A DNA stretch of 37,020 nucleotides from IMG/VR virus record IMGVR_UViG_3300030382_002436, positions 1 to 37,020 of that record; one strand, written 5' to 3'. Source of the stretch: a virus. A program made the translations under genes and the position numbers. Shown here piece by piece: positions 445-33,410 of the stretch (positions are counted from its first letter, which is position 1; every line of letters starts with the position of its first letter). Below the pieces are notes generated by a model. That model was not told the origin of the DNA. It searched no databases and saw only the letters and a program-made list of their open reading frames with translations.

Positions 445-590
445 AAGGCGGTAAATTAGAAGGAGTAGAAGGTGGTCTTCGTGCAGATTTATTTGACCAC
501 GATGAAGAAGGAGAAGGCACTTGTATATGTGACCTTCCAGAACATGCACAAAATATAATTTGGGATGAAATAGAACAGGATAATGCCTAA
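375..590 (+). CDS. Small acidic protein, unknown
   Basis: This 71-residue, strongly acidic protein is rich in Glu and Gly and has CICDLPEHAQNIIWDEIEQDNA at the C-terminus, in contrast to its basic neighbours. I chose the ATG at 375 because AAGGAG lies at 361-366 with an 8-base spacer; the upstream GTG at 366 has no SD. The first 70 bases are read in a second frame by the CxxC gene at 271-444. The stop overlaps the start of the 1071-residue structural gene. The function is unknown. Confidence 0.7.
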   Translation: MYEEKRSPEPNDSIQGRGVEEALEGGKLEGVEGGLRADLFDHDEEGEGTCICDLPEHAQNIIWDEIEQDNA

Positions 591-3500
591 ACAAATTCTT
601 AAAATAGATCAGTTTCATGGTGGACTGAGTAGTAATTCAGACCCTAGGGATATTGCTGATAATGAACTATCTGCTGCTACTGATGTAATGGTAGATGAAT
701 TAGGTAGGATCAGGACCATGGGAGGTACTGCAGTTCATGAGTCAAACTCTTCTACTGCTCTTGCAATTAATCCTGGTTATGGATTATTTCATTTTGCACA
801 TGATAGAATTGGTGGTCATTTAGGAGAGCATTTAGCTGAAGGAGATTTTGCTTCTCATGATAAATGGACTGGTGGTGGAGTATGTGTTGATACAGGTGGT
901 AATCTTACATTTACATTTGGTAGTGATACTTTAGATGGAACTGCTACACAGACATATGGTAATAGATTAGAGCTTGGTATAGGAGGTATTACTTACGCAT
1001 TTACATATACTGTTGCAGTTACAACTGCTCCTGATTTTTTTACTCTTGCAATAACTACTTTTCCAGCTTCAACAACATCATTACCGTTTACTGCTGGTAC
1101 TCATACAGTTACCTTTGTATCGCACGCTGATGCAGCTACAAAGCATTTTATTATAACAGGAACTGATGATGTTGGAGGAACAACAACTCAGGGCGTGTTT
1201 TCTATTGATAATGTTTCACTTTACATATATGATGCTGCTGAAACTGGAGATGATTATTTAGCGTTAGCTGATAATGAGAGCACTGATCCTGCTATTTATA
1301 TATATAGTAAGAATGAGGATGCATGGAGTGAATCTCAAACTATTACTCTTGGTGAAACTACTGGATTGGAAGCTAACTTTTATTATGTAGATGGAGCTTT
1401 GAGAATAAGTGATGGAAATTTTGGGATAGAAAATTTAAGTCAATGGCATGGATATATAAAGAATACTTGGTTTCCAAATATAGGCAGTGGTTTTTCTATT
1501 GATCAATGGTATCGGAATGAACAGAGAATTTTACCTCCAGATACTTCTTATTTTCAAAAAGATTGGGTAAGGACAAGCGGAGAAACGACTACATCTGATA
1601 CAATACCAAAAGGTTCACCAGTAACATTTGCTTCTACTGGAGCACATGCTGAGAAAACTAAGTCTAGTATACATACTGTGTTTGCGGCTGCTGATGACCA
1701 AACCAACGCTGTAGTTAGATGTGTGGCTGGTTTCGAGGTTGCTAGTGCATTTGGATCAACAAATATAAGTTTAACGCTTAAAGTTGGGTTTTGGAATGAT
1801 AATGGCGATGGAGTAGGAGGACCTGGTGTGTGGTCTCCTTACGCTCAAGAGGTTCTAGTTTTGGACCATGTGACCAATAGTGGTGCCAAGACTTATTTTC
1901 CAGAATTTAGTTTTGATGCTGCTGTAACTGATACTGATGATGCAAATTTACCTGGAGGTGGTGGAGATGATTACTTTAGGATTGAAGTGATTAGTTTTAC
2001 TCTTCACAGTGGAACATCTTTAGGATTCATAACAGTTCTTGATTCCCCTATTTACGAAGGAACTACCACTTCATTCCCAGCACTTGATAGTGGAGGTCCT
2101 TTTACTAATGGATATTCTACTGGAAATAATGTTTGTATGTTGTGGTCTTGGGATGGTGCTTTTTTAGATGCTGTCGATACATCATGGGTTCCTGCTGATA
2201 ATGCAGGATTATGGGGGATAGGAGCAACTTTTATATATGATGGGGTGCAAGAAAGCCAATTAACTGAACTTCTTGATGAATCAGATAATTCAATAGGTGG
2301 TATGAGTCTTGTTGGTTTAGATGGTGGTGATCTTGTGACAGAAAACCGTCCTGCTATAGTTATAGCTATTGCTGATCCTTCTCATGATGGGGATGGTAAT
2401 GGAGATGGTACAATATGGAATAAAAGAGTTACAGGGTGTAATATATATTTGAAAGATATGTATGCTGCTGGTATTGAAGGAGATGTTCCTAATGCATGGA
2501 TTTTACAGTATAGTGCTAATTTTTTAACAGGCAAATTAAGGGTTGAAAGTACACAAGCTGAGTTTGATGCTAGTTTTCAAAGTGACCCTACTAATCAATC
2601 ATATTATTATTGGTTTCTAAATACAACACACTCAACATCACCATCTGTAGTTACTAGTTATGAAATGAATACTGGATATGATAGTACTTCAGAAGATTAT
2701 GTATCTGCATATAAAACGGCTGTAGTAGCTAATAGAATAGTTTACATTGGCAATGTACAAGTTACAAAATCTGATAATAGTAAAGAGATATTAGGAGATG
2801 CTATGATTAAGTCACTTGTTGGGAAGCTTGATGCGTTTCCAATGAGCAGGTTAATAGAAGCTTCAATAAGAGATGGAGATAATATTGTTAAACTTGAAGA
2901 ATATGCAGATAGAATACTACAATTTAAGAAAAATAAAATGCATATTATTAATGTTTCACAGGAAATAGAATTTTTAGAAGATACATTTATGCATAAAGGA
3001 GTATCACATCCTGCTGCTGTATGTAAAACTGATTTTGGCATTGCATGGGTTAATAAACTTGGATGCTATCTATATGATGGACAGACTGTTAAGAATTTAC
3101 TTGAGAAAGGTGGCAGACAGATAATAAAAGAGAGTGACTGGGCAACCTTTACTGCTAATGAACCTATGATTGGGTATATACCAAAGAAAAGACAGTTACT
3201 TATTGTAGATGACAACAGTGATACTGGTTATGGTAAGACATTTTTATATGATATAGTTACACAGTCTTGGGTTAAAGGGTCTAATGGTACGATAACATCT
3301 AATGATTTAACAAACTTTGTTACAGATTGGAATGGTGATTTAATATATGCCCATACAGCTGGTACTGTATTAAAGTGGGTAGATGATTTGGCAGATGCAA
3401 CTGTATCTGAATCATCTGCTGTTGATATTAATACAAAAGATTATGATTTTGGATATCCTGGACAGAGAAAGAAAGTATATAGAGTTCGTATTTCTTATAA

Positions 3501-3798
3501 GGGAGATGCAGATACATTAGCAGTTAAGTATACTGTAAATGGAGATACTAATAATTTTTTTGGATTTGAAGGAACTACATGGTCAGATGGAGTAGGAACT
3601 CCTAGTGGAAGTCTTGATCCTAATCCATTAAGGGATGCATCTGATTTAACATATTGGCATCATGCAGAATTAAAGCCATCAACTTTATCTGAAGCAAGTA
3701 ATATATACAGTTTTCAATTACATATGAACGGAACTGCAGATGATGATTTTGAAATTAATGATATATCAATAGTATATAGATTAAAACCAGTTAAATAG
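583..3798 (+). CDS. Large beta-rich virion protein, probable tail hub/nozzle or stabilisation protein
   Basis: The 1071-residue product is rich in Gly, Ser, Thr and Asp. It opens with QFHGGLSSNSDPRDI and then DNELSAATDVMVDELGRIRT (residues ~9-48), an opening I associate with phage neck or tail proteins resembling P22 gp10 or T7 gp12, where a beta-propeller scaffold forms the tube end. The middle (~90-560) has jelly-roll-like repetitive beta segments. The section from ~700 to 960 has repeated short beta motifs with YDG and KLG turns. The C-terminus has KKVYRVRISYKGDAD (~965) and ends in a basic strand. The start overlaps the previous stop. Membership of this broad family rests on sequence style, not on a defined motif. 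Confidence 0.65.
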   Translation: MPKQILKIDQFHGGLSSNSDPRDIADNELSAATDVMVDELGRIRTMGGTAVHESNSSTALAINPGYGLFHFAHDRIGGHLGEHLAEGDFASHDKWTGGGVCVDTGGNLTFTFGSDTLDGTATQTYGNRLELGIGGITYAFTYTVAVTTAPDFFTLAITTFPASTTSLPFTAGTHTVTFVSHADAATKHFIITGTDDVGGTTTQGVFSIDNVSLYIYDAAETGDDYLALADNESTDPAIYIYSKNEDAWSESQTITLGETTGLEANFYYVDGALRISDGNFGIENLSQWHGYIKNTWFPNIGSGFSIDQWYRNEQRILPPDTSYFQKDWVRTSGETTTSDTIPKGSPVTFASTGAHAEKTKSSIHTVFAAADDQTNAVVRCVAGFEVASAFGSTNISLTLKVGFWNDNGDGVGGPGVWSPYAQEVLVLDHVTNSGAKTYFPEFSFDAAVTDTDDANLPGGGGDDYFRIEVISFTLHSGTSLGFITVLDSPIYEGTTTSFPALDSGGPFTNGYSTGNNVCMLWSWDGAFLDAVDTSWVPADNAGLWGIGATFIYDGVQESQLTELLDESDNSIGGMSLVGLDGGDLVTENRPAIVIAIADPSHDGDGNGDGTIWNKRVTGCNIYLKDMYAAGIEGDVPNAWILQYSANFLTGKLRVESTQAEFDASFQSDPTNQSYYYWFLNTTHSTSPSVVTSYEMNTGYDSTSEDYVSAYKTAVVANRIVYIGNVQVTKSDNSKEILGDAMIKSLVGKLDAFPMSRLIEASIRDGDNIVKLEEYADRILQFKKNKMHIINVSQEIEFLEDTFMHKGVSHPAAVCKTDFGIAWVNKLGCYLYDGQTVKNLLEKGGRQIIKESDWATFTANEPMIGYIPKKRQLLIVDDNSDTGYGKTFLYDIVTQSWVKGSNGTITSNDLTNFVTDWNGDLIYAHTAGTVLKWVDDLADATVSESSAVDINTKDYDFGYPGQRKKVYRVRISYKGDADTLAVKYTVNGDTNNFFGFEGTTWSDGVGTPSGSLDPNPLRDASDLTYWHHAELKPSTLSEASNIYSFQLHMNGTADDDFEINDISIVYRLKPVK

Positions 3799-3807
3799 GA
3801 GGATAAT

Positions 3808-3999
3808 ATGGGAATGACAAGACAAGAAAGAGTATCACTACATAAGAAGCAGGAAAGACTGCAAGTTAAAGATGGTTTTCCCAGTTCTAGAGATTTGAAA
3901 GAAGGTGTCCCAGTTTTAAGAAATGTACCAGGAACTGGTGTTGTTGAGTTTGTTAAGTTTAGGGGAGTTCTACACAAGAAAGTGTTAGATAAAGGTTAA
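3808..3999 (+). CDS. Small conserved virion-module protein
   Basis: This is a 63-residue protein preceded by a perfect AGGAGG at 3797-3802, overlapping the stop of the structural gene. After a charged N-terminus it carries PVLRNVPGTGVVEFVKFRGVLHKKVLDK. A short beta-hairpin ending in (F/Y)-x-G-x-L-(Y/H)KK recurs in small phage proteins near tail genes. It may be a structural linker or adaptor peptide; no firm function can be given. Confidence 0.7.
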   Translation: MGMTRQERVSLHKKQERLQVKDGFPSSRDLKEGVPVLRNVPGTGVVEFVKFRGVLHKKVLDKG

Positions 4000-4040
4000 T
4001 GAATTTTGTATATTTAAATGTAAAAATGGGAGTGATTTAG

Positions 4041-4529
4041 ATGGCTAAAAGTTTATACGGTGCTTATAGGGCTGCTGGAAGAGCTGGCGGTGCATATAGA
4101 TCAAGTTTACAAGATATACAAAATGTTGGGTATGAGATGGAGGCAAGTACACAAATGTTTGAAAAGGAATCAGATAGGAGGGAAGAACTTTTTACAACTC
4201 TTGGAGAAGGAACTGTTCTTGCAAGTAACATATTAGAAAGGGCAAAAAGCAGTGCTGAATTAGAGAGAGGTATGGAAAACCTTGGTAAAGAAAAATATGA
4301 AAAGCTTGATCTTGATGAACCATGGGAAGATTTAGATATTAAAGAGAAAGCTAAGTATATGCCAATGCAAACATATGGTAAAGGAAGTATTTGGGAAAAG
4401 GCAGCTATTTTGGGAGGGGGAGTAGACCCTTTATATGAATTTGAAGGTAAAGAATATTCAAAATCAAAATTACAAGCTTTAATTGATATTAAAGAGGCAA
4501 ATACACTATGGTCAGAAACAAATCAATAG
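4041..4529 (+). CDS. Virion-module protein, helical, unknown
   Basis: The product has 162 residues. The N-terminus is Ala/Gly-rich (MAKSLYGAYRAAGRAGGAYR), followed by a long helical, charged stretch with coiled-coil character (residues ~25-100). GGAG sits nine bases before the ATG. It overlaps the next gene by 22 bases. It lies first in the block of probable internal or ejection proteins, so a minor internal virion protein is the best guess from position. Confidence 0.65.
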   Translation: MAKSLYGAYRAAGRAGGAYRSSLQDIQNVGYEMEASTQMFEKESDRREELFTTLGEGTVLASNILERAKSSAELERGMENLGKEKYEKLDLDEPWEDLDIKEKAKYMPMQTYGKGSIWEKAAILGGGVDPLYEFEGKEYSKSKLQALIDIKEANTLWSETNQ

Positions 4530-5275
4530 CACAGAATCATTTATCAGGACTTGCAAGGCAAGGTAGAGGAGGAGATACTGAACTTGCTCATGTAAATCCA
4601 CGAGAGAAATCTATGTTAAAAGCTATGGGTGGTTCTGGTGGTATCAATCCTAATACTGGATTAAGAGAGTATCAAATTCCTGCTTATACACCTATGTCAG
4701 GAGGGTTCGGAACAGGTTCAGGTGCATTAAGTCTTGGGACTAGTGCCTCTACTACTGCCGCTGGAGGAGGACTTATGGCAGGTATAGGGGCAGCAATGCC
4801 TTTTATAGGATTAGGGTTACAGTTAATTGGTGGAGCTTCAGCAGCTAGCGAGGCAAGAGATCAAGCTAGAAAACAATCGAAATTATTAGCGTTACAAATT
4901 AAAGAGCAAGAAGGAGCTTTAAAAAAGTTAGAACCAAAAAAGCAAGCTGAAACAGTTGTTGCATTAGGTGAATATCAAACAGCTGGAGAATCTCTTGGAT
5001 TAAGTAAAAGTGAAACTGAGAAACAGTTGGGTGAAGTTGTTAAAAAAAGCGGACTTGTTACATCTGCAGGTGTTACAGAGAAGAAATCAATAGCATATAA
5101 GCAAATAGGAGCAGCGGAAAAGGGAATATATGGCAAGCTTGGTCAGAAATTAGGTGGTATCGAAGAATGGTTTGAAGGTGAGACAGCAAGGATTCAGGGA
5201 ATGATTAAGAGCGCCACACTTCAGAAAAAAGCTGCTGACAGGGCGTCTGGTAAGAAATATTTAGGAATATTTTAG
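4508..5275 (+). CDS. Probable internal virion (ejection) protein with hydrophobic segment
   Basis: The protein has 255 residues. Residues ~27-55 read AHVNPREKSMLKAMGGSGGI followed by NPNTGL, a motif I associate with phage virion proteins in the ejection or internal-core block. Residues ~88-112 form a Gly/Ala-rich hydrophobic stretch (GGGLMAGIGAAMPFIGLGLQ) that could insert in a membrane. A long Lys/Glu/Gln coiled-coil follows (~115-250). The architecture, one pore-like helix and then a coiled coil, suits a protein ejected into the host envelope. Its position just before the giant proteins agrees. The exact role is inferred. Confidence 0.65.
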   Translation: MVRNKSIAQNHLSGLARQGRGGDTELAHVNPREKSMLKAMGGSGGINPNTGLREYQIPAYTPMSGGFGTGSGALSLGTSASTTAAGGGLMAGIGAAMPFIGLGLQLIGGASAASEARDQARKQSKLLALQIKEQEGALKKLEPKKQAETVVALGEYQTAGESLGLSKSETEKQLGEVVKKSGLVTSAGVTEKKSIAYKQIGAAEKGIYGKLGQKLGGIEEWFEGETARIQGMIKSATLQKKAADRASGKKYLGIF

Positions 5276-5284
5276 GGTAATATT

Positions 5285-6916
5285 ATGGCAAATGGAGTAT
5301 TAGCAAGTTTAAATAGAATATTAGAGTCTCAAGAACGTAGAGAACAGACTAAATTACAAACATCTTTAGCTATGATGGAGATGTCACAGAGAAGAAGAAT
5401 GCAAGACTTTGAAATGGTAACAAAACAGTTAGAGCAGGGAACTAATGTTAATAAGGAGTTACGGTTAAAAGTAGTTAATAATTTTTTAAATAAATCAGGT
5501 TTTAATTCTTTAATAGGTATAGATTATACAACTCCTAAAGATGACAGGGACCCTCCTGATCTAAATAAAGCTGTAAAAGACCTTACAAGGGCTGAGTGGG
5601 GAAAGTTTAGTGAATCAGATGCTCAGAGGATTGTAACTGCTGTATGGACTCATAGAGCTTCACAAGACCCAACTGAAGTTATTGAAATTATGAGTGACTT
5701 GAGGAATCAAATGGATTCAGGCGAAGGTGAACTGTTTAAAGCTTATCAAAGAGGCAGTGGTAAAGGTAAGAATTTAATAGGTTATAAAGGGATTGATGAT
5801 GATGTATGGCAAGCTCAAGAGTCTTTAAGGATTGGTGAGAATATATTTCAGGAGAGGCGTGAAGTTTCTGAAGGAGACTTTAAAATTGATTTAGATTTAG
5901 GATTAGCAGAAGAACAAATTGCTCCTACTTTGCCAGAGGGTGTTTCTTTGACAGGAGATGTGTCAGGCATATCAGATCAGAGTAAATACCAAGAGGTTAT
6001 TATTGACGATATAAGAGATAAGAATGAACAGATAGTAGCAAAACAGAGGGCTAAAAGAACAGCAGAAATTTTAGAACAAGAGATACTTGATAAAATTAAG
6101 TTAGGAACAGCAAGTGATAAAGAAAAAGAACAATTATTAAAGATACCTTCAATTCAGGATGAATTTGACGAAGATATACGAGTACTTCAATCTGGGATTG
6201 CTCAAGTCAAATCAAGTGCTGATGTTCTTGCTGAGATGGAGATAAGAGAATTAGTACGGCAGGTTGGTAAAAAATCTTTTCAGTACCCGTCTGGAGTTGG
6301 AGCTGCGGGAGACTTCAGACCATCTGAACCAAGATATGGTGAAAAAATACTTGCATCTTTGACAAAAGAAGGTACATTCGATTTATTAGAACAATTACCT
6401 GATGAATTGGTTGCATCTATTGTTGCAGGCGATAAGAAGGATGTAAAAGATAGACTAGGAACTTGGGCTAGTAGAAATTATATTGATGACACAGGGACAA
6501 GGAAATATATTTCTGAAAAACAATATAGAAAACTAGTAGAACTATCAGATATAGTATCAAGATCAAGAGCATTAGAAGCTGGTGAGGTTGGTACAGGACT
6601 TGTTAAATCAATAGACCTTCCTTATGTGTCACCTCCTCCTGCACCTGTTGTTGCACCTACTGAACAGCCTTTGTTAATACCAAATATATATTTTAAAGGG
6701 CAAACCCCTATTGATGATCCTGATGATTTTGAGTTTCCAGTAAAACAGGGGATTCCATTTGCTCCTAAATTAGGACAGCCTGGATTTACAGCAGTCCCCT
6801 CTGTTTATCAGCCGTCACCTGACCCAACTACAGGCATGTTACCTGACCCTATTACAAGTGCTTTAAATGCTCTTCTTGTTCCTCAATCTCTTGGTCTTCC
6901 TCCCCCAATTAAATAA
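5285..6916 (+). CDS. Internal virion-type protein, coiled-coil with Pro-rich tail
   Basis: The protein has 543 residues. An N-terminal charged helix rich in Met, Gln and Arg (residues 1-60) is followed by mixed helical sequence. Residues ~220-300 form a predicted coiled coil, and the last ~110 residues are proline-rich and low-complexity (VSPPPAPVVAPTEQP). There is no catalytic motif I recognise. It is transcribed with the ejection-type genes on either side (9-base gap upstream, 2-base gap to the giant gene), so a structural or chaperone role for internal proteins is plausible but unproven. Confidence 0.6.
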   Translation: MANGVLASLNRILESQERREQTKLQTSLAMMEMSQRRRMQDFEMVTKQLEQGTNVNKELRLKVVNNFLNKSGFNSLIGIDYTTPKDDRDPPDLNKAVKDLTRAEWGKFSESDAQRIVTAVWTHRASQDPTEVIEIMSDLRNQMDSGEGELFKAYQRGSGKGKNLIGYKGIDDDVWQAQESLRIGENIFQERREVSEGDFKIDLDLGLAEEQIAPTLPEGVSLTGDVSGISDQSKYQEVIIDDIRDKNEQIVAKQRAKRTAEILEQEILDKIKLGTASDKEKEQLLKIPSIQDEFDEDIRVLQSGIAQVKSSADVLAEMEIRELVRQVGKKSFQYPSGVGAAGDFRPSEPRYGEKILASLTKEGTFDLLEQLPDELVASIVAGDKKDVKDRLGTWASRNYIDDTGTRKYISEKQYRKLVELSDIVSRSRALEAGEVGTGLVKSIDLPYVSPPPAPVVAPTEQPLLIPNIYFKGQTPIDDPDDFEFPVKQGIPFAPKLGQPGFTAVPSVYQPSPDPTTGMLPDPITSALNALLVPQSLGLPPPIK

Positions 6917-6918
6917 GT

Positions 6919-9900
6919 ATGGCTGACAATTTAACTCTTCAGTTTAAAGAAGAATTAGAAGAAAGAGCTAGGAAAAGTAGCTCACAATCTGTATTTACAC
7001 CTACGGCTCCATCTGGTACTCAAGGAGGAGGAAGCATGTGGGAGGCATTGCAAAGACCAGAAGCTGATGATGGTATGAGAAAAGAAGGAGCTCTAAATGC
7101 ATTAGGAGCAGGATTATGGAGTTTTGCTGATACATATGCTTTTGGAGTTCCTGGAGCGTTTGTAGAAGAAGAAAAATTTATAGATTTTGAAGACCCGTTA
7201 GCTAAATGGACATCTGCATTTGGTGGATTTATAGGGTTTGTAGCTGGGGCTCCAATGAAAATAGGTGCTAAAGTAGTAGCAAAAGTTGCTCAACCATTCA
7301 TTAAAAAAGCTGGAAGAAGGTCAATTGATTCTGTTGTCAGGGAAATGAAGACAATAGGAGTTGATCAGAAGCTTGGCAGAAGTACAATTAGAGAAGCAAC
7401 TACTGGGTATAGAACATTAGCCCTTAAATCTGGAGTTGATAAAAGATTAAGAGGTGAAAAGTTTACTGAAGCTGCTGAAGATTATTTATCAGCTTTCCTT
7501 GATAAGGCACGAATAGGTGAATCCGCTCTTACAATGGGACAAAAAGTATCTGTTTCAAAAATGTTTGGAAATGCCATTAAGACAAGACCTATTAATGATT
7601 TCAAAGGATTAATGGCTCTAAGAGGAGTTGATAGTAGGTTTCAAAGAGTTATAGGGCATGCATTGAATGATGCTGTAATGTTTGGGGCTATTGATACTAT
7701 CTTTGAAGGAGTCTCTACAATAGAAGACCATGAGTTTGATTGGACTGCTCCTTTATGGGGAGTTGCTAATGGTATTGCGTTTTCTCAGTTATCATGGTTG
7801 AATCCAAGTGGCAAAAGGGCTAAATGGAATGTTGATTTTAAATTAGGATTAAAGGCGGCTTTCAGTAAAGATATATATACAAGAATGGGGAAAACTGAAC
7901 TTGCAGCATCTGCTAAGTTTATGGGTGAATCATATTTTCATAATGGGGCAAAAACAGGGTCTCGTAAGATTTTATTTAAAGGGGAAGAAAAAACAGTTAA
8001 TTTATTAGCTGATGATCTTTTACAAGAGATTAAGCAGTATTTTCCAAAAGCAAAGCCAGAAGACGTATTAAAGTCTTTCTTGAATAAAGAGAGAGTAAAG
8101 TGGGGCAAGGATATGATGAAGTGGTCTACGATTGAAGAGGCTGACGCATTACGGGAGAATTGGATGAGAATGATAGCTGGAGGACTATTATTTAATGCTC
8201 ATTCATTTGTTGATATGTATATGCATGGCTACGAACCAGATGTAAGTGACATACTTCCTCACTTCTTAATTGGAGCTTATGTACAAAGGAAAAGCAATCC
8301 TTCTAAGTTTGATATGAACGATGCAAAGATGACTAGGATGAGACAGAATATGATGATTCTTGGGTTCCACCCTGATCAGTTGGCTGATATTCCAACATTT
8401 ATGTATAAGAATACTAGGTTTAAGAATTTCTTTAATGATCCTAAGAATAAATCTATTTTAGATTTAATGGAATCAGAAGGACTTATTAGCGATAGTTATG
8501 AGGCAGTGTCTGAGAAATCTCCGCCAGGTGAAAAAACATTAGGTATTCCTGAAAATATTAATCCATTATTTGAAAACTTATATAGAGAGATGATTGGCAG
8601 GCAAGGGTTTCCAAAAACATTTGGAGCTATAACAGTAAAAACACAGAATAAAATTTTAAAAGAATTCCGTAAAATACATGGTGACGTAACTGAAGTTGAA
8701 GCTTCAGAAATATTTGAAAAATCATATGATGAAAGTACAGAGAATTTTGATAGAGAGTTTATTAACACATTAATTAAAATAAAAGATGCTGCTGTTAATA
8801 ACGAGCCTGATATGGATATGACATATAATCCAGGTAATCCATCAAAAAGTAAAATGCCAGCATATGTTGGGATAGATGAAGCTATAATAAATAAAGCTCG
8901 TAAAGGGGAATTAAAATTCCTGAAAGACCCTAAGGATAGAAGAAAGACTTTAAAAGGGGAAGAGGCAGTAGAAGAATTAAAAAATAAGATTGAGGGATTA
9001 AATAAGATAATATTAATGACTAATTCATTAAATCAAACAACACCACTTCCTGGAGGAGAGCAAAGAACAATCAAAACTGAAGCTTTCACAGAATCAATGT
9101 ATAAGGAAATGAAGATTGCAGAGTCCAAAATAAATAGTTTGTTCCCTGATAAATCTCAATTAGCAGCTCCATTTACATTTTCTGAATATTGGAATGACTA
9201 TAATAGAATTTTATTAGATAATCATACTAAGAAATTTTCTAAAGGTATTCAGAAGGTATTTAAGCAAGATTATGTTGAGAAAGATAAATTAGCTACAAAG
9301 CTGTTTAATGCTGGAGTTCTTCATAGAACTGGAGAAGGTGAGCCAAACAGGTTAATAGATTCTGTTATGAAAATTAAAATAACTGGGACAGAGGATGCAG
9401 AGAGGATAGCAGAAGCTTTAAGAGTTATTCATAGAGCACTTAATCTTCAGACGAATTCAGGGGGATATCATGTTATTGAAGATACTCTTTTTAAGAAGGG
9501 GGGAAAAGAGGTATCGATAGATGATGTAGATGCTTTAAATACTTTTCTTAGTGAAAGAACAGGAGGAGCTCTTGATCTTAAAACAATAAATGATAGACTT
9601 CATCATAAAATTGCAGATTTTATTCTTAAAGATGCTATTGAAGGTTCTGGTCTAAGAACTGATCAAGCTGATGTATTTTTCAATTTAGCTGGGACTGGGT
9701 TTGCTAGGTTTGAATCAGCTGTTAAAGGAAAGGCAGGAGGATTTCAAATAAGATTAGTTGATGAAAAGACTCTACCAACAAGTGCTGATGAAAATGCTTC
9801 ATTAAAAGAAAGTGCTATTGAATATAATAAGTATGTTAGAACAATGATTCAAGATAGTAAAGGTCTTGTTGCTGAATGGGGAGACCCAATTCAGAGAGTT

Positions 9901-12900
9901 GATAAGACTGTAATGCAGGATTTGTATAATACAGTAACTAAAAATTATGATGTTAAGTATCTTGCCAGAGTAGAATTAATGAAACTTGCTAATATTACAT
10001 CCGTGAATTATGCTGAGTTTAGTACTCGACTATCAGCTTTTGCAAACGCTGGTCATGAGAGTTATGCTTTTAAATGGTTAACTCAGATGGGAGTCTTTAA
10101 ATATACTGGAAAGGATAAGACAGAAATTCAAATTATTGAAGAAAAGTTTAATAAAGAAATAGAAAAGAAAATGCTCGATATAATGAGCAGGCATGGAGTT
10201 TCTGCTAAATATTCAGAAAGAATATATAAAGAACATGAAGAGATTGCTCGTGAAAGTATCATGGCTGAAGAAGATATGATAGATTATAATCCTAGAATGG
10301 ACATGCAGACATTCTTTTCTAGGTACAGAATAGGCAATGAAACTAGTTATGAGGAAATGTCAGATCGTGATTTAAAGAAGATGCAATCAAGTTTTGATGA
10401 TATGATTTATGTAGGAGCTGACCAGGAATCAAGGGTATTGCATATAGATTCTGTGAGGAAAGTTCTTAAAAATATATGGGTAGAGCATAATGGAGAATGG
10501 AAACATCTTGATACACTAGCAGAGCGTGATCAGTATAGACCTCAACTGACACGAGATATGATTGGACTTCTCTGGCAGCAAAGTGCACAAATGAAAGTAA
10601 AAGTAGTCGGATATGAAAGAGGTTCTTTAACGTCAAGAGAAGAGGTAATGAACAAGACAAGGTTTACTGAACTAATGTTGGATGTTGATATTCCGTTTAC
10701 TATTGTTGATCCTACAGCTTTTGTTTATGAAATGGTTGATAATAGGTATATGCGTAGAAGATACTTAAATATGTATGGAGATTCAGGGAATCTTACTAAA
10801 AAGGAAAGGGAGTTTGTAGAATTACATCAAAAGAAATTTGAATCTCTTTTAAAGAACCGAGAGTCTTTTGAGGGAGAACCGACAAGAGGAGAAGATGAAA
10901 CTGAACTAGGATTGCATATTGTGGCTCTTTCTAGGGGCATGTCAACAATAGCAGTCCTTGCAAGAAACCTTCATAAGATTTATAATCCATTTAAAGAATT
11001 TGTTAAGAGGTATGATATTGAGGCAGTAGAGCCTAATGAGACAAAAAAATATAGAAATCTTGTTGAGAAGATTAACGCAGAAGAGGTTCTTACACCTCAA
11101 GAATACTCATATATGTTAAGAAGAATTATGTTTGAAAAGATGCTTGTAGGGTCAGATGGAAATAGAACATTCTTAGAATTTCTTAATGGCGAACGTGTAG
11201 AAAAATTAATGTCAAGATCAAAGTTATTTAATACTAAGAAGTTTGTACGTACAGGTAAACAATTTATTGATGACGCTAGGGTTGCATTACTTGAAACTGC
11301 TATAACAAGTTCTCAGAAAAGAGCTGCTAATGTTTTAAGAAAATATTCACATAAAAATGGGTTTGGTGTAGCAATATGGAATGATGTTGAATATGCTCCT
11401 TTAATAGCTTCTGCTGATGCATGGGCAAAGAAATTAAAGCTTGACTGGAGAGCTAGTGATATAATAGGGGATGCTCATGCTGAAAAGTCTAAATATGATA
11501 GTATTGGGTTTATAAGTAGAGATATGATGACATTGTTACATACACTGCTTGGACATAAGTTTAATTCAACGAATCCTTTGAAGCCTGTTATAACGTCAGG
11601 AGGTCCAGATTCTCCTCTTTTATTAGGGAAAACATTATTTATATACAGTCCAGCAATGAATGCTACGTTTGGCAGGAACAAAAGTGTTGATATTGTAATA
11701 ACAAAGAGTGGATCAAAAGTTTATAATCCTAAAGGAGTTGAAGGAGAAGGACCTGCATGGGATACAAGTATAATTAATAAGGAAATATCTCATTTAATAA
11801 CTGAAAATGGATTACATATAGGTTCTGGTAAGATTAGGAAAATTACACTTGAATCTCTTGGTGTTATGCCAATGAAAGATACATACGAATCATCAGCCTC
11901 TGAAGGCATGAGTGATTATAATTATGCTAGCAATAAAGAGCATGGCAGAATTTTTAAGGAAATGTATGAAACTCAAATGAATACTAATATGGATTGGTTT
12001 GTGAAAGTTGCAAAAGACCCTATTCGTATGCGACAATGGATATTGAGTACTATGGGAGACGAAGGAGTTTCACCTAGTCCTGAATCTGGGGAAGCCATGA
12101 ATCATCTAAGCAATATGCATTTGTTTTCATCTCTTACAAGAGATGCTAATCCAATGAGTTTTAGTGAAAATATTCTTAAAAATAAGATGTACGGAATGTA
12201 TATGCATGGGGTTTTAAACAATAAGCGTTCTGTTATAAATCAATGGACTCAAAAAGAAGTGCAATCTGCAGAGAACTATTCACCAAGATATGGAGGTCAA
12301 GCATATTTTATGCAGGCTCCTGAACATGACCTAAGACCAACTTTAATAAATCGAGATGGTGTAATGCTCGCAAGAGGAGAGGCAATGCTACCTTTTGCAG
12401 ACATGGAAACTAGAATAGCCGATTTGGTATCAACTCATGGGATGGAGTTTAGATTTGTAAAAGGGACTGAAATTTTAAAACCTGAGGATGCTCTTGGTTC
12501 TGATATTATAACTGTAAAAGGGAAAAAGAAAACTGTTTCAAAATGGCAACTATTTTTGGATGGTGATGGGACTTTAGGTACTTTATTTAAAAGTATTGAG
12601 CTTGGAAAAAAGAATAATTTATATGATAAAGATTTACAAATAGGTGTTATTGTTAAAAGATTCCCACGAACAAGACCTAATGATATGTCAGTACTTGCTT
12701 TAAAAGGTTTTTTAGCAGAAGAATATGGAAGAGCTATTGCAGTTAATAGCTTAGATGTTGCAAATGTTTATGAGGGTGACTACGATGCTGATAAAGCAGA
12801 TTATTTATTTGCAGCTAAAAAATCATTTTATGCTCACGTAGAAAGAGCGTCTCAATTTTTAGTACAAGGAATAGATGTTGAAAAACTGCAAACTCGAAAT

Positions 12901-15465
12901 AGATTTGTTTTTAATGGGGCTCCCGCTACAGAAGATGCAGCAATCAGAAAAATGATAGCTGATGATAATGTTTGGAAACAGTCAATAGGAATTGTTCAAA
13001 AGATTCCACGTAAACTTAGTTTTTTAAGTCATCTTGGTTCCGTTGAAGCTAAACCTAATTTAGACCCATACGTTAGGGATTATATAAGAGATGTAAAGGG
13101 AGAATCGTTTGTTCCTAGGTCATTACTTAGAGGAGAAGGTAAGGATGGTCCTTATAAAATTATTATGGACTTTAATAATCTCGATTTTTATACAAGATCA
13201 GCTCTTGAGACTCAGTATATAATTGATGGTAAAGGAGATTTAAATAAGGATATTGCATCAAGCATTAGGCATTGGGGTGATACGTTTCTTTTTCCTAAAA
13301 TAGAAGATTCAAAGTCATCATCAGAAATAGAAAAGATAGGCGTGGGATTTGTCAATGATATGAGAGTAAAAGGTAACAGTTTTGAAAAAAGAGTTAGGAT
13401 TTTTAGAAGAATTGAGATGAATGAAGAGGGTAATTTTGTTGAAAAAGAGCTATCATCTCTTGACAAAGCAATGATAAAAGAACTTATGTCTGAATATGGA
13501 AATTTTTTAAACTCCACAGGCAAAGAGAATTTTGGGAAAGCTGGTGAAAAGAACAGGGCAACATTTGATGGAGTAATGTCTGGTTCTCATAAATTTTTTA
13601 CATTTAATGAAAATATTAAAGATGGTCTTTATTATAGATTGAGAAATAGAAGAATTGATCCTTCAATTGAAAAAAGTAAGAAGTGGTCTGAAGATAAAGA
13701 GTTTAAGAAACTTTTTGGAGTTAAGGAACAGCCGAAATATAAAGATAAGTCTGGTAAAGAGGTAAGATGGTGGAAGTCAGAGGAATCTCCAATAGAAGAG
13801 TCAGTTTTTCAAAATGCGAAAGAAATTGCAGTCGGTAAGAGAGGTTCTGTTCTCGAAAGAATGCTATACAGAATGTATGATGCCGATCCATTTGAACAAA
13901 TTCATCTTAAAGGATTAACTGGTGAAGTTAGGGGGATAATGAATGATTGGTATAATCAGATAGTAGAAGGCACATATGGTGATTATGGAAATGCTACTAA
14001 AATTTTACGTGAAAAGGTAACAACAGCAGCGTTTAAGATTAATGATGCAATAGATACTATTGCCTCAATGCAGAAGCAGGTAATGCTGATTCAACATAAT
14101 AGTAGTATTCCATATAAGATTAAAGCTCAAAAAATAGATGATGCTAATAAAGTTATTAAAGAGATGCTATCTAAAATTGAACCGATGATTCCTAAGAGTT
14201 ATTGGAAATCAAGGAGAGCAAAAGAGTTATTTAAAGCTAAAGTAAAATTTGTTTCAGTTGAAGAAAAGAACCTTATTGAGGGTGCTATACATTATGCATC
14301 TATAAATAATTTAAGACAGGCTCTTGGTGGTAGTCCTACTTTTGGATTAAATACTGATGCAATAGCACTTTTAAAAGAAATAAAACACGTACGAAAACTT
14401 TTTTATGGGAATTTTGATAGCCTGAAAGATGTTTTAAAATATAAAGACACTACAGTCCTTAGTGAGGAGATGCAAGAGTTTTTATCAAAAATGCCAGAGT
14501 TATCTACTGTTCATGATATTGAAAATAGTTTGCTTTTAAAAGGGTATAATGCGCATCATATTAAATTTATATATGCATTTATGGACCCTGGAGCTGATCC
14601 AACATCTATTGGAGTTTTCGATAATCAAGTAGTCCCAGTCCCTTTTCAGGCTTCTAAGAGATATAGTAGAGGAATTAAATTTTTAACACAAATGATGACT
14701 GGTTTTGATAAAGAGGCATCTCCTGTTGCAAGGGAGCAGTGGGTTAAAGAAAAAGGGAGTGTAGCTGAGTCAGCGTTGAAAATGCTTCAAACAGTCGAGG
14801 GTGATTGGCGTAGATTCTATACTAGAAAAATTGATCAGAGAGGTATATCGGAAACAATTGCAAATATAGGAGCTCCTGAGGTAGGAGACCTTGCATTAAG
14901 TCATGTAAAGATGCCTGATTTTCATAGAGATTTTACTAAAACATTTACAAGTTTCAGCAGGATTGATTGGAGAAGGGATACTGATAGAATTGGAATTGGA
15001 TCAGGATTGATGAATGACCATCTAATACAGTTTTATTCTGATATTATGAATTTAGCTGGGAAAGGTGATGACTTTACATCGTATTTACAGAGAATGAATG
15101 CTTTACAGTCTGATATGATGAGTAACAGGACAATGCATCCTATTAAATATCTTTCAATAAGGTCTCTTATGGATAAAGAAGTAAGGGAAATCGCAGAAAG
15201 AGTTCTTACAGGAGGGTTGGTAGATAAGAATAATACATATGTAAAGAATATTATTAATAATCCTGTCTATGCAATTATGGGAGGGGTAGGTCACTATAAA
15301 GGATTAAGTCTTGAGAAGCGTAATTTTCTTGACAGGAATGAATTGAAAGATATTATAAGAATGAATGAGAATCTTAAAGGGTATGATAAAGATTTAAATG
15401 TGAAGTCTTCATCATCTAAAAAACAAATTAGAGAAGCAATAGCAAAATGTTTAGAAGGTAAATAA
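6919..15465 (+). CDS. Giant virion protein, candidate virion-packaged DNA-directed RNA polymerase (DxDxD type)
   Basis: The product has 2848 residues. The N-terminus has a WSFADTYAFGVPGAF segment and a hydrophobic helix at ~95-125, as seen in large ejected virion proteins. The key feature is EGDYDADKADY at residues 1952-1962. The three aspartates D1954, D1956 and D1958 match the DxDxD metal-binding loop of two-barrel RNA polymerases (NADFDGD in bacterial beta-prime). About 40 residues before it lies VKRFP (R1914, P1916), matching the R-x-P strand of beta-prime, which precedes its DFDGD by about 35. Upstream, LNNKR (K1769) could supply the first-barrel lysine. Crass-like phage phi14:2 packages a 2180-residue RNA polymerase with this motif. 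No T7/N4-type motif C (HDS) was seen. The remaining ~2000 residues are unassigned. The start follows the previous stop by two bases with no SD, which suggests coupled re-initiation. Confidence 0.65.
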   Translation: MADNLTLQFKEELEERARKSSSQSVFTPTAPSGTQGGGSMWEALQRPEADDGMRKEGALNALGAGLWSFADTYAFGVPGAFVEEEKFIDFEDPLAKWTSAFGGFIGFVAGAPMKIGAKVVAKVAQPFIKKAGRRSIDSVVREMKTIGVDQKLGRSTIREATTGYRTLALKSGVDKRLRGEKFTEAAEDYLSAFLDKARIGESALTMGQKVSVSKMFGNAIKTRPINDFKGLMALRGVDSRFQRVIGHALNDAVMFGAIDTIFEGVSTIEDHEFDWTAPLWGVANGIAFSQLSWLNPSGKRAKWNVDFKLGLKAAFSKDIYTRMGKTELAASAKFMGESYFHNGAKTGSRKILFKGEEKTVNLLADDLLQEIKQYFPKAKPEDVLKSFLNKERVKWGKDMMKWSTIEEADALRENWMRMIAGGLLFNAHSFVDMYMHGYEPDVSDILPHFLIGAYVQRKSNPSKFDMNDAKMTRMRQNMMILGFHPDQLADIPTFMYKNTRFKNFFNDPKNKSILDLMESEGLISDSYEAVSEKSPPGEKTLGIPENINPLFENLYREMIGRQGFPKTFGAITVKTQNKILKEFRKIHGDVTEVEASEIFEKSYDESTENFDREFINTLIKIKDAAVNNEPDMDMTYNPGNPSKSKMPAYVGIDEAIINKARKGELKFLKDPKDRRKTLKGEEAVEELKNKIEGLNKIILMTNSLNQTTPLPGGEQRTIKTEAFTESMYKEMKIAESKINSLFPDKSQLAAPFTFSEYWNDYNRILLDNHTKKFSKGIQKVFKQDYVEKDKLATKLFNAGVLHRTGEGEPNRLIDSVMKIKITGTEDAERIAEALRVIHRALNLQTNSGGYHVIEDTLFKKGGKEVSIDDVDALNTFLSERTGGALDLKTINDRLHHKIADFILKDAIEGSGLRTDQADVFFNLAGTGFARFESAVKGKAGGFQIRLVDEKTLPTSADENASLKESAIEYNKYVRTMIQDSKGLVAEWGDPIQRVDKTVMQDLYNTVTKNYDVKYLARVELMKLANITSVNYAEFSTRLSAFANAGHESYAFKWLTQMGVFKYTGKDKTEIQIIEEKFNKEIEKKMLDIMSRHGVSAKYSERIYKEHEEIARESIMAEEDMIDYNPRMDMQTFFSRYRIGNETSYEEMSDRDLKKMQSSFDDMIYVGADQESRVLHIDSVRKVLKNIWVEHNGEWKHLDTLAERDQYRPQLTRDMIGLLWQQSAQMKVKVVGYERGSLTSREEVMNKTRFTELMLDVDIPFTIVDPTAFVYEMVDNRYMRRRYLNMYGDSGNLTKKEREFVELHQKKFESLLKNRESFEGEPTRGEDETELGLHIVALSRGMSTIAVLARNLHKIYNPFKEFVKRYDIEAVEPNETKKYRNLVEKINAEEVLTPQEYSYMLRRIMFEKMLVGSDGNRTFLEFLNGERVEKLMSRSKLFNTKKFVRTGKQFIDDARVALLETAITSSQKRAANVLRKYSHKNGFGVAIWNDVEYAPLIASADAWAKKLKLDWRASDIIGDAHAEKSKYDSIGFISRDMMTLLHTLLGHKFNSTNPLKPVITSGGPDSPLLLGKTLFIYSPAMNATFGRNKSVDIVITKSGSKVYNPKGVEGEGPAWDTSIINKEISHLITENGLHIGSGKIRKITLESLGVMPMKDTYESSASEGMSDYNYASNKEHGRIFKEMYETQMNTNMDWFVKVAKDPIRMRQWILSTMGDEGVSPSPESGEAMNHLSNMHLFSSLTRDANPMSFSENILKNKMYGMYMHGVLNNKRSVINQWTQKEVQSAENYSPRYGGQAYFMQAPEHDLRPTLINRDGVMLARGEAMLPFADMETRIADLVSTHGMEFRFVKGTEILKPEDALGSDIITVKGKKKTVSKWQLFLDGDGTLGTLFKSIELGKKNNLYDKDLQIGVIVKRFPRTRPNDMSVLALKGFLAEEYGRAIAVNSLDVANVYEGDYDADKADYLFAAKKSFYAHVERASQFLVQGIDVEKLQTRNRFVFNGAPATEDAAIRKMIADDNVWKQSIGIVQKIPRKLSFLSHLGSVEAKPNLDPYVRDYIRDVKGESFVPRSLLRGEGKDGPYKIIMDFNNLDFYTRSALETQYIIDGKGDLNKDIASSIRHWGDTFLFPKIEDSKSSSEIEKIGVGFVNDMRVKGNSFEKRVRIFRRIEMNEEGNFVEKELSSLDKAMIKELMSEYGNFLNSTGKENFGKAGEKNRATFDGVMSGSHKFFTFNENIKDGLYYRLRNRRIDPSIEKSKKWSEDKEFKKLFGVKEQPKYKDKSGKEVRWWKSEESPIEESVFQNAKEIAVGKRGSVLERMLYRMYDADPFEQIHLKGLTGEVRGIMNDWYNQIVEGTYGDYGNATKILREKVTTAAFKINDAIDTIASMQKQVMLIQHNSSIPYKIKAQKIDDANKVIKEMLSKIEPMIPKSYWKSRRAKELFKAKVKFVSVEEKNLIEGAIHYASINNLRQALGGSPTFGLNTDAIALLKEIKHVRKLFYGNFDSLKDVLKYKDTTVLSEEMQEFLSKMPELSTVHDIENSLLLKGYNAHHIKFIYAFMDPGADPTSIGVFDNQVVPVPFQASKRYSRGIKFLTQMMTGFDKEASPVAREQWVKEKGSVAESALKMLQTVEGDWRRFYTRKIDQRGISETIANIGAPEVGDLALSHVKMPDFHRDFTKTFTSFSRIDWRRDTDRIGIGSGLMNDHLIQFYSDIMNLAGKGDDFTSYLQRMNALQSDMMSNRTMHPIKYLSIRSLMDKEVREIAERVLTGGLVDKNNTYVKNIINNPVYAIMGGVGHYKGLSLEKRNFLDRNELKDIIRMNENLKGYDKDLNVKSSSSKKQIREAIAKCLEGK

Positions 15466-15467
15466 TA

Positions 15468-18400
15468 ATGGCAATAATTGATTGTAGCATTGACAAAAAG
15501 AATTATGTTGAAATAGCAAAATCTATTGACGAATGGGCAAGCAAACAATCTAATAGAGGTATGTTTAAAGACCCATGGGAAGCTGGTCTTAGGTTAGTTG
15601 AGACTGAATTTATGTTTGATTTTGAATCTGCCCAGAATATTCCAATTACTGATGGTCAAGTAGGTTCTTTTAAATCAAGACTAAGGGAACTTACAAGGTC
15701 TGTTGAGAGAGGGACAATAGATAGTGACTTTGCTAAATTCTTCTGGCAGACATCACATTATGGGAAGAAAGACCCTGTTATTGGTAGGCTGTTAAATACA
15801 ATGCAAAGGTCTAGCCATACATTTAGATATAATGAGCACAGAGATAGGTCATTATCATCGGCTATGTTTGAGGATTTAAAGGGTGAATCTTTATCAAGGG
15901 GGCTTCAGACTAGACTTGGATTGAAAAATGCTGATAAAGAGATGAGAAAGCTTGATGAAGAATGGCAACAAGAATTTACTAATTGGAAGAATGGAGTAAA
16001 AGGAGCAGAAGATAAGATTCAAGATGTTGATTCAAGGATTGAAGAATTAGTAAAGAGTACTCATTTGCAAGTTTATGAAGACATGATTACAATGATTGAA
16101 GGCAAAGGTAAAATGAGAGATGGTAAGATGATATGGGAATCTGGACTTCCTAAGATTGTACAGGAGAAATATAAAACAATGACTCCAGAAAAACAATTAG
16201 AAGTTGACGAAGGAAAGAGAATTGTTCCTATAACAGAGACTGACTTAACTGCTTTAAGAACACAAGATGGCAAGAAAGTATCTCCTCGTATGTACGATGC
16301 TATTGTAAAGTATAAAAATTTAATGGATAACCTTAATAAAACATTAAGATATTCTGTAGATACTAGGATTAAAAGTATTATTAAAAGAAATAAGATTAAT
16401 GATAATGAACAAACAAGTGCACAATTAGAAGAGATTAGAAAGAAGATGCAAGATTTATTCATGCCGAAGTATGAACAAGGATTTTTTCCTCATTATACTA
16501 GGGATTTGAATATTGATATACTTGGAGGTGCTCCAGATGCTAAAGGACTTCAGAGTGGCATAGGGAAATACTTTGAAGAAATGCAATCTGCTGTTAATCC
16601 TTATGAGAAAACTAAGGTTAAACGTACAATTCAAGATATAGCAAATGATATGAATCTTTATATTTCAGGGCATGCACAAAGAAGAGCAGAAGTTACGGAA
16701 ACAGGAGAGGCTTCATACGGGTACAGTCGTGATTTCTTCAATACTATAAATAATTATATATTTGATATTAATAGATTTAATTATATCTCTTTTATGGATT
16801 CACATATGCTAGACGGATTGTCATCTGTTGAGAAAATATACAATACTGAAGGTCATGCTAAAGGCTATGCAGAATCACTTACTAATTATATTAGAGACTT
16901 GCATTTAGCTTCTAATGGAGATTCTAGTATAGAGCCTGCTACAAGAAACTTTATGCGTACCATATTAGGATTTGAGTTTATCAGTAAGTTGGGTATTAAT
17001 CCTAGAGGTGCAGCTAGAAACTTTACACAGAGAGCTTTAGATTATATAGAGTGGGGTCCAGTCCAAGTTAAAAGGATGAAAAAACAGTTAGATACAATTG
17101 ATTTAGGTGGTGATGCTGAATCATATGTAACAACTTCACTTAAAAAAGCAGGTCTATTATATGATGAAATATCCACACAACTACTTGAGAGTCAGCTACA
17201 GGCTCCTGGATCGGTGTTTAAGGTCGTTAATTGGAACGAGGCAGAGGGTAAATTTGAATTTAATAAAACACCTCGCATGGAGAAGGTTGCTAACGCTGTG
17301 TCGTGGGCTGCTGGTAAATCAAGCTTATTGCATAGAATGGCTGAAAACTCTAATAGAAAACATACTTTTAAACTTGGGTTTGCTCAGATGCATGGATGGT
17401 TATATAATCCCGAATACAGGGCAAAACTTAGAGATAGAGAAATTGAGAAAAGAAAAGAGAAGGGAAATGATAATCCTGTAACTGAAAAATTTATTAATAA
17501 TATAATAGCTGCTAAATCAAGAAATTATGCTATTAACATGGTAGTATTAAATCATTTTGATTATGCTGACTATGCAAAGAGCAAAGCATTAAGATCAAAA
17601 GCTGGAAGGTTTTTAGGTCAATTCCAACATTATAGCTTTGAATTCTTTGAACGTAATTTAAGGATATTAAGGGAAGCTAAGCATGATGTTATAGCAGGGA
17701 ACCTTCTTCCTAATGGTGATGCTAGGGGTCTTCAGAAAGCATATAGAATGGGATTAGTATATTTCATGGCTCCTGTAATTGCAAGTGCATTGACTGGTGT
17801 AAATTTCTCAAATCTACTAGAACATGATTCAGCTGAGAGAGTTAAGCAGCTTGCTACATTATTAACAGGCGATGAAGAAGATATTAAGACTGCCTTTTAT
17901 GGGAAAGGACCTATCATATCTACATTTGGAGGACCTATTACATCTGACTTAATTGATATAGGTATGATGTTAGATTTAATAGACTTAGATGAAGATTCGT
18001 TAATGACTCTAATAACTGGAATGGAAAAATATGATCCATCAGTACAGTCTACTGAACTTAGCAAGAGATTAAGGATCATTAATACATTTTTAGGAAGAGC
18101 TACTGAAAGACATATTCCTCAACTTACTAAAGGTAGAATTGGATGGGCTGTTCAACAGGAATTTGGATTATATCCTACTAAGGAAGCTCGCCAGAAACAA
18201 AAGAAATATAAGAAAGCTAGAAAAGAATTACTTCCATCTGATATTGAATCTGCATTAGCAGCTCTTGAATCAGGGAAAGGTGTACGTTCATTTGCTAAAG
18301 GTGGTCAATTTATAACTAAAGGTCCAGAGACTATTGTAGTAGGTGATAATCCTTCAGGTAGAGAAAGGGTAACTGTTGAACCATTAGGTAAAATACCTAA

Positions 18401-18548
18401 GAGTAAAGGACCTGCTAAATATAATAAATTTGATATGAAAAATCTAGATTCAGCTTTATCTGAACTTGCTGAAACTAAGAAACGAGAAGATAAAGAGTTT
18501 GTCCCTGGTAGAAAAATGACTTTATCTGATAATGATGAATATGCATAG
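15468..18548 (+). CDS. Large internal/ejection virion protein with tape-measure-like C-terminal motif
   Basis: The product has 1026 residues. It is helix-rich with coiled-coil stretches (residues ~150-200 and ~290-330). A conserved-looking block LGINPRGAARNFTQRALDYI lies near residue 507, and a hydrophobic region YFMAPVIASALTGV near 765-778. Residues ~940-966 read FAKGGQFITKGPETIVVGDN and continue SGRERVTVEPL. That GG...GP..(I/V)VGDN-x-x-GRE-x-V pattern is typical of the tail end of phage tape-measure and related proteins. It is separated from the giant polymerase-like gene by two bases, with GAAGGTAA as SD. It may assist injection or delivery of the giant protein. The stop lies inside the convergent hairpin. 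Confidence 0.6.
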   Translation: MAIIDCSIDKKNYVEIAKSIDEWASKQSNRGMFKDPWEAGLRLVETEFMFDFESAQNIPITDGQVGSFKSRLRELTRSVERGTIDSDFAKFFWQTSHYGKKDPVIGRLLNTMQRSSHTFRYNEHRDRSLSSAMFEDLKGESLSRGLQTRLGLKNADKEMRKLDEEWQQEFTNWKNGVKGAEDKIQDVDSRIEELVKSTHLQVYEDMITMIEGKGKMRDGKMIWESGLPKIVQEKYKTMTPEKQLEVDEGKRIVPITETDLTALRTQDGKKVSPRMYDAIVKYKNLMDNLNKTLRYSVDTRIKSIIKRNKINDNEQTSAQLEEIRKKMQDLFMPKYEQGFFPHYTRDLNIDILGGAPDAKGLQSGIGKYFEEMQSAVNPYEKTKVKRTIQDIANDMNLYISGHAQRRAEVTETGEASYGYSRDFFNTINNYIFDINRFNYISFMDSHMLDGLSSVEKIYNTEGHAKGYAESLTNYIRDLHLASNGDSSIEPATRNFMRTILGFEFISKLGINPRGAARNFTQRALDYIEWGPVQVKRMKKQLDTIDLGGDAESYVTTSLKKAGLLYDEISTQLLESQLQAPGSVFKVVNWNEAEGKFEFNKTPRMEKVANAVSWAAGKSSLLHRMAENSNRKHTFKLGFAQMHGWLYNPEYRAKLRDREIEKRKEKGNDNPVTEKFINNIIAAKSRNYAINMVVLNHFDYADYAKSKALRSKAGRFLGQFQHYSFEFFERNLRILREAKHDVIAGNLLPNGDARGLQKAYRMGLVYFMAPVIASALTGVNFSNLLEHDSAERVKQLATLLTGDEEDIKTAFYGKGPIISTFGGPITSDLIDIGMMLDLIDLDEDSLMTLITGMEKYDPSVQSTELSKRLRIINTFLGRATERHIPQLTKGRIGWAVQQEFGLYPTKEARQKQKKYKKARKELLPSDIESALAALESGKGVRSFAKGGQFITKGPETIVVGDNPSGRERVTVEPLGKIPKSKGPAKYNKFDMKNLDSALSELAETKKREDKEFVPGRKMTLSDNDEYA

Positions 18549-31936: not shown

Positions 31937-31963
31937 TGTTATTCCTTTCTGTTTATTAAATTA

Positions 31964-32061
31964 AGGGGGCTACTCCCTCTTGATGGTTTCAACCCGTTGC
32001 ACACAGGTAAACCTCTGTCGGTCAGGTTATCTCAGTCAAATTTTTATGACTATCGCCCCCT
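31964..32061. other. Structured intergenic element E7
   Basis: This 98-base unit has a perfect 7-bp GC-rich closing helix (31964-31970 with 32055-32061). Inside is a 5-bp hairpin with an 8-base loop (32034-32038 with 32047-32051), and a 7-bp stem with one mismatch and a 4-base loop (32001-32007 with 32012-32018) extended by AACC/GGTT. It is a three-way junction larger than the others. The rest of the gap between 31937 and 32133 shows only an unconvincing 16-codon frame at 32080-32130. Confidence 0.5.
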
Positions 32062-32133
32062 CGTAAATTAAATAGCGTCTTACGCATTAATTGCTGTTTT
32101 ATCTGTTGCTACTAACTTAATGTGCGCCATTTA

Positions 32134-33232: not shown

Positions 33233-33244
33233 AAATAACTAAAA

Positions 33245-33404: not shown

Positions 33405-33410
33405 TATAAT
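33405..33410 (+). promoter_or_regulatory. Candidate -10 of the rightward operon
   Basis: A perfect TATAAT lies 30 bases before the first rightward ATG. The expected -35 region (TTTCAG, 16 bases upstream) is poor. It is placed mainly by position. Confidence 0.35.

Follow-up and report, generated by a model that had tools for sequence, protein, structure and literature searches.

The giant gene and its neighbours

The window, by which we mean the whole stretch of DNA analysed here, comprises a complete IMG/VR record, 37,020 bases long. An open reading frame on its plus strand (positions 6919-15465) encodes a giant protein of 2848 residues, predicted to be a single-chain two-barrel RNA polymerase. 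The polymerase region occupies the middle of the chain and carries an N-terminal extension of ~1400 residues and a C-terminal extension of ~550 residues.

The late-strand genes before it (583-6916, plus strand) encode a tail-type protein of 1071 residues, small proteins (4041-4529 and 4508-5275) and a protein of 543 residues, all of which, judged from their position, are candidate tail and ejection proteins. Homologues of 583-3798 occupy the same neighbourhood in the related genomes G001, G002, G005 and G008, as do homologues of 4508-5275 and 5285-6916 in G001. Downstream, the polymerase gene is adjoined by a conserved neighbour of 1026 residues (15468-18548, plus strand), which had no family match in Pfam or PHROGs and has a 27-48% identical homologue beside the giant gene in G001, G002, G005 and G008. 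In the four long genomes compared, the giant gene is a late-strand gene with the tail-type gene and this neighbour close by. The shared order runs from the tail-type protein through small ejection-type proteins and the giant polymerase to the neighbour of 900-1000 residues, followed by early genes on the opposite strand; these include a DnaB helicase, a Dam-type methylase, a RuvC-type resolvase and a Cas4-like nuclease. On the strand opposite the early genes, the window also encodes a terminase small subunit (34468-35253, plus strand; PF03592, E 6.5e-7), with a homologue in all 13 related genomes tested.

Of the larger related records, mostly of 45-56 kb, all 14 encode a large terminase (phrog_38) as well as a P22-type portal (phrog_156), and a major head protein was found in the one larger record scanned for it. 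These three genes are missing from the window because the record is a fragment. The best matches of the large terminase, at 25% identity, are to an Alicyclobacillus phage and roseophages. No long tape measure protein was recognised in the related phages, which suggests that phages with this polymerase are short-tailed.

The original prediction had singled out the sequence EGDYDADKADY, preceded about 40 residues earlier by VKRFP. Both are present in the reading frame, the former at residues 1952-1962 (12772-12804, plus strand) and the latter at residues 1912-1916 (12652-12666). EGDYDADKADY is the predicted magnesium-binding catalytic loop, with D1954, D1956 and D1958 as its ligands. Taken alone, a DxDxD motif is at chance level in the giant protein, occurring once against 0.73 expected (6.4% Asp); for an R-x-P at the correct distance from it, the chance expectation is 0.036. 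As the motif alone is near chance, the case was built from relatives and fold.

Relatives and predicted fold of the polymerase

Single-sequence searches with the window protein gave no match in Pfam, PHROGs or PDB sequences, and neither did tblastn of this protein (P0001) and of the divergent L093 against 50,697 annotated phage records (INPHARED), nor an hmmsearch of PDB sequences with the family profile. A scan of bacterial and archaeal genomes found no relatives of the polymerase, and a viral scan with patterns from the whole giant protein, drawn from unconserved stretches, returned none either. A 71-residue segment around the motif led to 20 IMG/VR contigs with relatives. Alignments from these contigs extended the family to 222 loci (several per contig) with 90 distinct core sequences, which sit on ~90 IMG/VR contigs and are 23-46% identical to the window in the core. 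The relatives are presumably marine, to go by the sample numbers that we recognised. With no description of this polymerase family found in the literature searched, the suggestion of a distant, undescribed branch fits these results.

The long frames, found in 182 loci, encode 2724-3028 residues and place the motif at residues 1834-2142. EGDYD[A/V/I/F/Y]D is present in all 89 distinct cores that cover the site, far beyond what chance would give (the 90th, L222, ends before the motif), so the expected conservation of the three aspartates in close homologues was found; it is partly selected, because most relatives were retrieved by degenerate patterns containing EGDYD. Searches based on other blocks ([VPL][FI]KP..SxG and [YF][GA]KT.F) returned no relative lacking the Asp triad. 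Conservation is concentrated in residues 1487-2241 of the giant protein. Among 64 non-redundant relatives, the invariant columns of the first barrel are D1527 S1528, K1555 P1556, K1571 T1572, D1591 and K1600. Further along the chain they are G1820, P1916, T1918, D1922, F1931, G1937, D1946 and the catalytic loop itself (E1952 G1953 D1954 Y1955 D1956 x D1958), with a few more columns downstream.

These columns fall into blocks that resemble the parts of a two-barrel enzyme. A DPBB-A-like block, recognised from conservation and predicted strands, spans residues 1527-1605 (11497-11733, plus strand) and contains D1527-S, K1555-P, G-K1571-T and D1591-x8-K1600. Of its three invariant lysines (1555, 1571 and 1600), two may correspond to K743/K767 of QDE-1. 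The DPBB-B-like barrel covers residues ~1816-1963 (12364-12807, plus strand), as indicated by AlphaFold2 strands, the fold search and hhalign to crAss vRNAPs. Within it lies the strand R-x-P-R-T-R-P-N-D (residues 1914-1922; 12658-12684, plus strand), which is conserved and aligns with Y-R-[IV]-P-[TN] of crAss vRNAPs; R1914 is nearly invariant in the same 64 relatives, in which P1916, T1918 and D1922 are fully so. Directly after DPBB-B, a helix of 38 residues (residues 2002-2039, helix 563-600 of the model; 12922-13035, plus strand) is, from its position, a candidate bridge helix.

A first AlphaFold2 model, computed with 20 close relatives, was poor (pLDDT 58, barrel B below 50) and was set aside. 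With 64 diverse relatives, AlphaFold2 modelled residues 1440-2300 with a pLDDT of 86.1 and a pTM of 0.86, and placed the DPBB-B strands at model residues 377-385, 467-474, 484-492, 500-503 and 520-524. A Foldseek search of the PDB with this model returned the phi14:2 vRNAP (6vr4) as best match (E 8.4e-11), then Neurospora QDE-1 (2j7n; E 2.8e-7) and RDR2 from plants. The matches with E < 1e-3, 16 in number, all belong to single-chain two-barrel RNA polymerases, and ranks 17-50 are other two-barrel RNA polymerases, with no other fold among the matches listed. In BFVD, two unnamed proteins that resemble the family rank first and second (TMq 0.83 and 0.69; 18-22% identical), and crAss-phage RNA polymerases are among the matches ranked next. 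The superposition on 6vr4 is poor overall (TMq 0.32, rmsd 25.8 Å over 895 columns); such a weak global superposition is expected for multi-domain chains, yet it is no tight match. Since the global TM is low, the fold claim rests on the E-value, the exclusive match list and the profile match. The two-barrel fold that had been proposed around DYDAD thus agrees with a predicted region whose PDB matches, among those listed, are all two-barrel RNA polymerases, the phi14:2 enzyme best.

For the profile match, the family was compared by hhalign with a profile of eight crAss-type vRNAPs (phi14:2, crAss001, LMMB and others), giving P 3.5e-5 against 0.073 for a reversed control and aligning DYDAD with the crAss DFDID and R-x-P with R-x-P. 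Among 150 shuffles of the columns of the whole profile, one scored higher than the true comparison. For DPBB-B alone, P was 7e-6 and the score of 35.2 exceeded the highest value among 300 column shuffles (25.8). With DPBB-A alone, the hhalign score against the crAss profile was not significant, the hit pairing FDSIxFIS with TDAQAYIT. By inspection, the order K..K..D-x8-K is common to the family, the crAss vRNAPs and the DFDGD branch described below; a regular expression for this barrel-A lysine pattern was dropped as a test, as it matched 199 of 1200 shuffled sequences. Comparisons with RpoC, RpoB, gp64 and gp96, made with single sequences or shallow profiles, were not significant. The match to the crAss vRNAPs falls in the register expected. 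Separately, we noted a crAss-type vRNAP with a DYDID loop in Flavobacterium phage Fpv1 (L234, 40064-46548), a record that is not classed in Crassvirales.

A profile search led to a 104-kb record with a second giant gene and, through it, to a sister branch of the giant polymerase (L253:7987-17184, minus strand, and L257-L263; 2977-3066 residues). It carries the canonical QRDFDGDH, with AIPKK in place of R-x-P. Its hhalign match to the family (P 7e-12) extends from D1527 through both lysines and D1591-x8-K1600 to the catalytic loop. Because the alignment covers both barrels, we assign EGDYDxD and the canonical DFDGD motif to a single lineage. The 104-kb record itself (G006, IMGVR_UViG_3300030451_002683) contains two large terminases, two portals and two different giant polymerases ~55 kb apart; this doubling may stem from an assembly that joined two phages, or the tandem may be real.

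A tandem inverted repeat before the early genes

Comparison of related genomes revealed a tandem inverted repeat, ACCCG[TATAAA]CGGGT-T-TTCCA[AAA]TGGAA (33245-33274, minus strand), that is kept in related genomes and is a candidate early promoter; the generic direct repeats of the early region pointed to no promoter. The first early gene (32916-33179, minus strand; 87 residues, preceded by AAAGGAG) starts 65 nt downstream of the inverted repeats. A first early frame of 78-97 residues with an AP-x-[KR]-x-G core is also present in the other 11 genomes aligned, and the noncoding stretch before it is conserved even where the giant proteins are 24% identical. GTTA (33236-33239 in the window) follows the element in every aligned copy. 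The element occurs once and lies 62-96 nt from the start codon of the first early gene, and its distance to the small terminase gene varies (~330-1200).

By inspection, the element is present in 12 of 14 genomes (the window, G001-G005, G007, G009 and G011-G014); in G010, a possible 13th, the first hairpin is present and the second repeat is different and weaker. The stems vary between genomes by changes on both sides, as in CCGCCC[TATC]GGGCGG with ATTTCC[AAAA]GGAAAT, CCCCCT[ATA]AGGGGG with TCGC[AAA]GCGA, CTCCC[TATC]GGGAG with TTCGC[AAA]GCGAA, and ACCCCAC[TATC]GTGGGGT with TTTTTGA[TTTC]TCAAAAA, among other variants. We also scanned the early strand of the 1.3 kb upstream of the small terminase gene in the 14 genomes with a fixed threshold, which 11 of them passed, compared with a mean of 0.29 (maximum 2) under a Markov null; the hit in G008, one of the 11, is a different sequence, and G009 and G012 were added by inspection. 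The same threshold was passed by 13 of 300 random windows. RNAalifold detected two-sided changes in two of four pairs, in an alignment that misregisters loops of different length.

In phage N4, the ejected polymerase binds early promoters that consist of GC-rich inverted repeats, in which the variable bases of the stem need only pair (PMC4496689). The element fits the features of such hairpins, being a short-loop GC-rich inverted repeat before early genes in which pairing is kept. Each of the three early promoters of N4 has a single hairpin, whereas the window has one site with two adjacent inverted repeats. At an N4-type promoter, recognised by the virion polymerase, transcription starts ~11 nt from the hairpin centre. 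Since N4 promoters are inverted repeats bound by the polymerase, we propose the element as a promoter of the virion polymerase, a reading by analogy to which we give about even odds.

Other roles for the element appear to us plausible and doubtful in equal measure: it may be an operator bound by a dimeric regulator, a structured RNA leader, or part of a packaging or end site close to the terminase. Perfect dyads with two-sided changes would suit dimeric binding proteins too, although operators less often occur as a single copy. A packaging or end site would agree with a small terminase gene 0.3-1.2 kb away; against this, the spacing is tight to the first early start codon and loose to the terminase gene. 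In the window, the element is closely followed by a sigma-70-like site, TTGATT-16-TATAAT, from which the early genes could be transcribed by the host enzyme. Sigma-70-like sites are not enriched (103 found, 104.8 expected).

Two further features were observed around the early region. A noncoding stretch of ~105 nt (31950-32075, minus strand), closed by GGGGGC...GCCCCC, folds far more stably than shuffled sequences (z -3.8; 0 of 200 as good), and gave no Rfam match and no blastn copy among the related loci compared. A 39-nt repeat, 92% identical between its copies at 33408-33445 and 33649-33687, includes GAGTAACTAA and GGAGT. The second of these copies lies just ahead of the rightward gene at 33683, and the repeat is possibly a shared late or middle promoter with a ribosome site.

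Interpretation and comparison with known polymerases

Sequence comparison and structure prediction support the identification of the giant protein as a two-barrel RNA polymerase related to crAss vRNAPs. We consider it likely that it represents a new family of two-barrel DNA-dependent RNA polymerases, nearest to the crAss enzymes, which is made late, packaged and injected and transcribes the early genes, probably from the tandem hairpin. In this proposal, D1954, D1956 and D1958 would hold the catalytic magnesium, and the invariant lysines of the first barrel (the region of K1555, K1571 and K1600) would contact substrate or nucleic acid. The polymerase would be made late and loaded into the particle alongside the ejection-type proteins encoded next to it, would enter the cell ahead of or together with the DNA, and would then transcribe the leftward early genes, probably from the hairpins at 33245-33274. 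We infer packaging from the position in the late operon beside tail- and ejection-type genes and from the examples of phi14:2, P23-45 and N4; injection, enzymatic activity and use of the element as a promoter are likewise put forward as expectations.

The best PDB fold match, the crAss-like vRNAP of phi14:2 (2180 residues, PDB 6VR4, AGO48955), shares with the window protein the register R-x-P ... F-L-P ... G ... D-[FY]-D-[VI]-D and the order K..K..D-x8-K, and both are giant single chains encoded in the late structural gene block. They differ in that identity is 11% in the structural alignment, with no tblastn match, and in the loop, which is GxDFD[IV]D in crAss vRNAPs and EGDYDxD in the window family. 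Crassviruses have genomes of ~100 kb, whereas the window-type records have ~45-56 kb and a P22-type portal. QDE-1 and the RDR enzymes, the second best fold group, also have both barrels on one chain, and conserved barrel-1 lysines are known in QDE-1 (PMC1750930), but they are cellular, eukaryotic enzymes of RNA silencing with ~10% identity. In the Thermus phage P23-45, gp96 is an RNA polymerase fused to a giant tape measure virion protein, and the reported promoters are AT-rich and GC-rich motifs, not hairpins (PMC10770324). Like the window protein, gp96 and gp64 are two-barrel single-chain RNA polymerases; the hhalign P for gp96 is 0.24, and its polymerase is N-terminal to the tape measure, compared with mid-chain in the window protein, and no tape measure was recognised here.

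The same polymerase could be a non-virion enzyme, made during infection for late or middle genes like gp64 of P23-45. With packaging deduced from context and no other recognised RNA polymerase in the window record, we regard this as unlikely rather than negligible: the gene stands in the late structural cluster, between tail- or ejection-type genes and a conserved neighbour and opposite the early strand, and its product of ~2850 residues, with ~1400 non-polymerase residues at the N-terminus, is giant like the N4 and crAss vRNAPs, whereas gp64 has 616 residues. A catalytically dead structural or ejection protein that retains the polymerase fold is very improbable. Activity is a prediction from sequence and models, yet no tool result favours a dead enzyme, the three aspartates and the lysines are invariant and R-x-P nearly so down to 23% identity, and the divergent branch retains DFDGD. 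Size, gene setting and the hairpin-like early element are shared with the virion polymerase of N4 (Schitoviridae), which is giant, ejected and of a T7-like right-hand fold (PMC4496689, PMC12633501). That fold is unrelated to the predicted two-barrel fold, and the fold search gave two-barrel enzymes only; a weaker point is that PF00940 was unmatched in 15 records, the controls being silent too. We therefore hold an N4-type right-hand polymerase to be exceedingly improbable. Scarcely credible, too, is a coincidental DYDAD in an unrelated virion protein: the chance expectation of DxDxD given above would allow it, and conservation, fold and profile match contradict it.

The predicted polymerase adds a family of virion-type two-barrel enzymes that has no annotated relative and is related to crAss vRNAP, though beyond pairwise reach. 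Together with its DFDGD sister branch, the family helps to place the root of the single-chain clade to which the RNA-silencing polymerases belong. New here as well is the tandem inverted repeat common to 12 or 13 of 14 related genomes before a conserved first early gene; through this element, promoter use by an enzyme of this kind can be put to a direct test. A hairpin promoter, if true, would be a striking parallel to N4. That widespread, uncultivated and apparently short-tailed marine phages use an injected two-barrel RNA polymerase to begin early transcription from an extruded tandem DNA hairpin is a possibility we place slightly below an even chance; if it is true, the N4 strategy of a giant ejected polymerase and a hairpin promoter would have arisen anew, with an enzyme from the superfamily of the cellular RNA polymerases.
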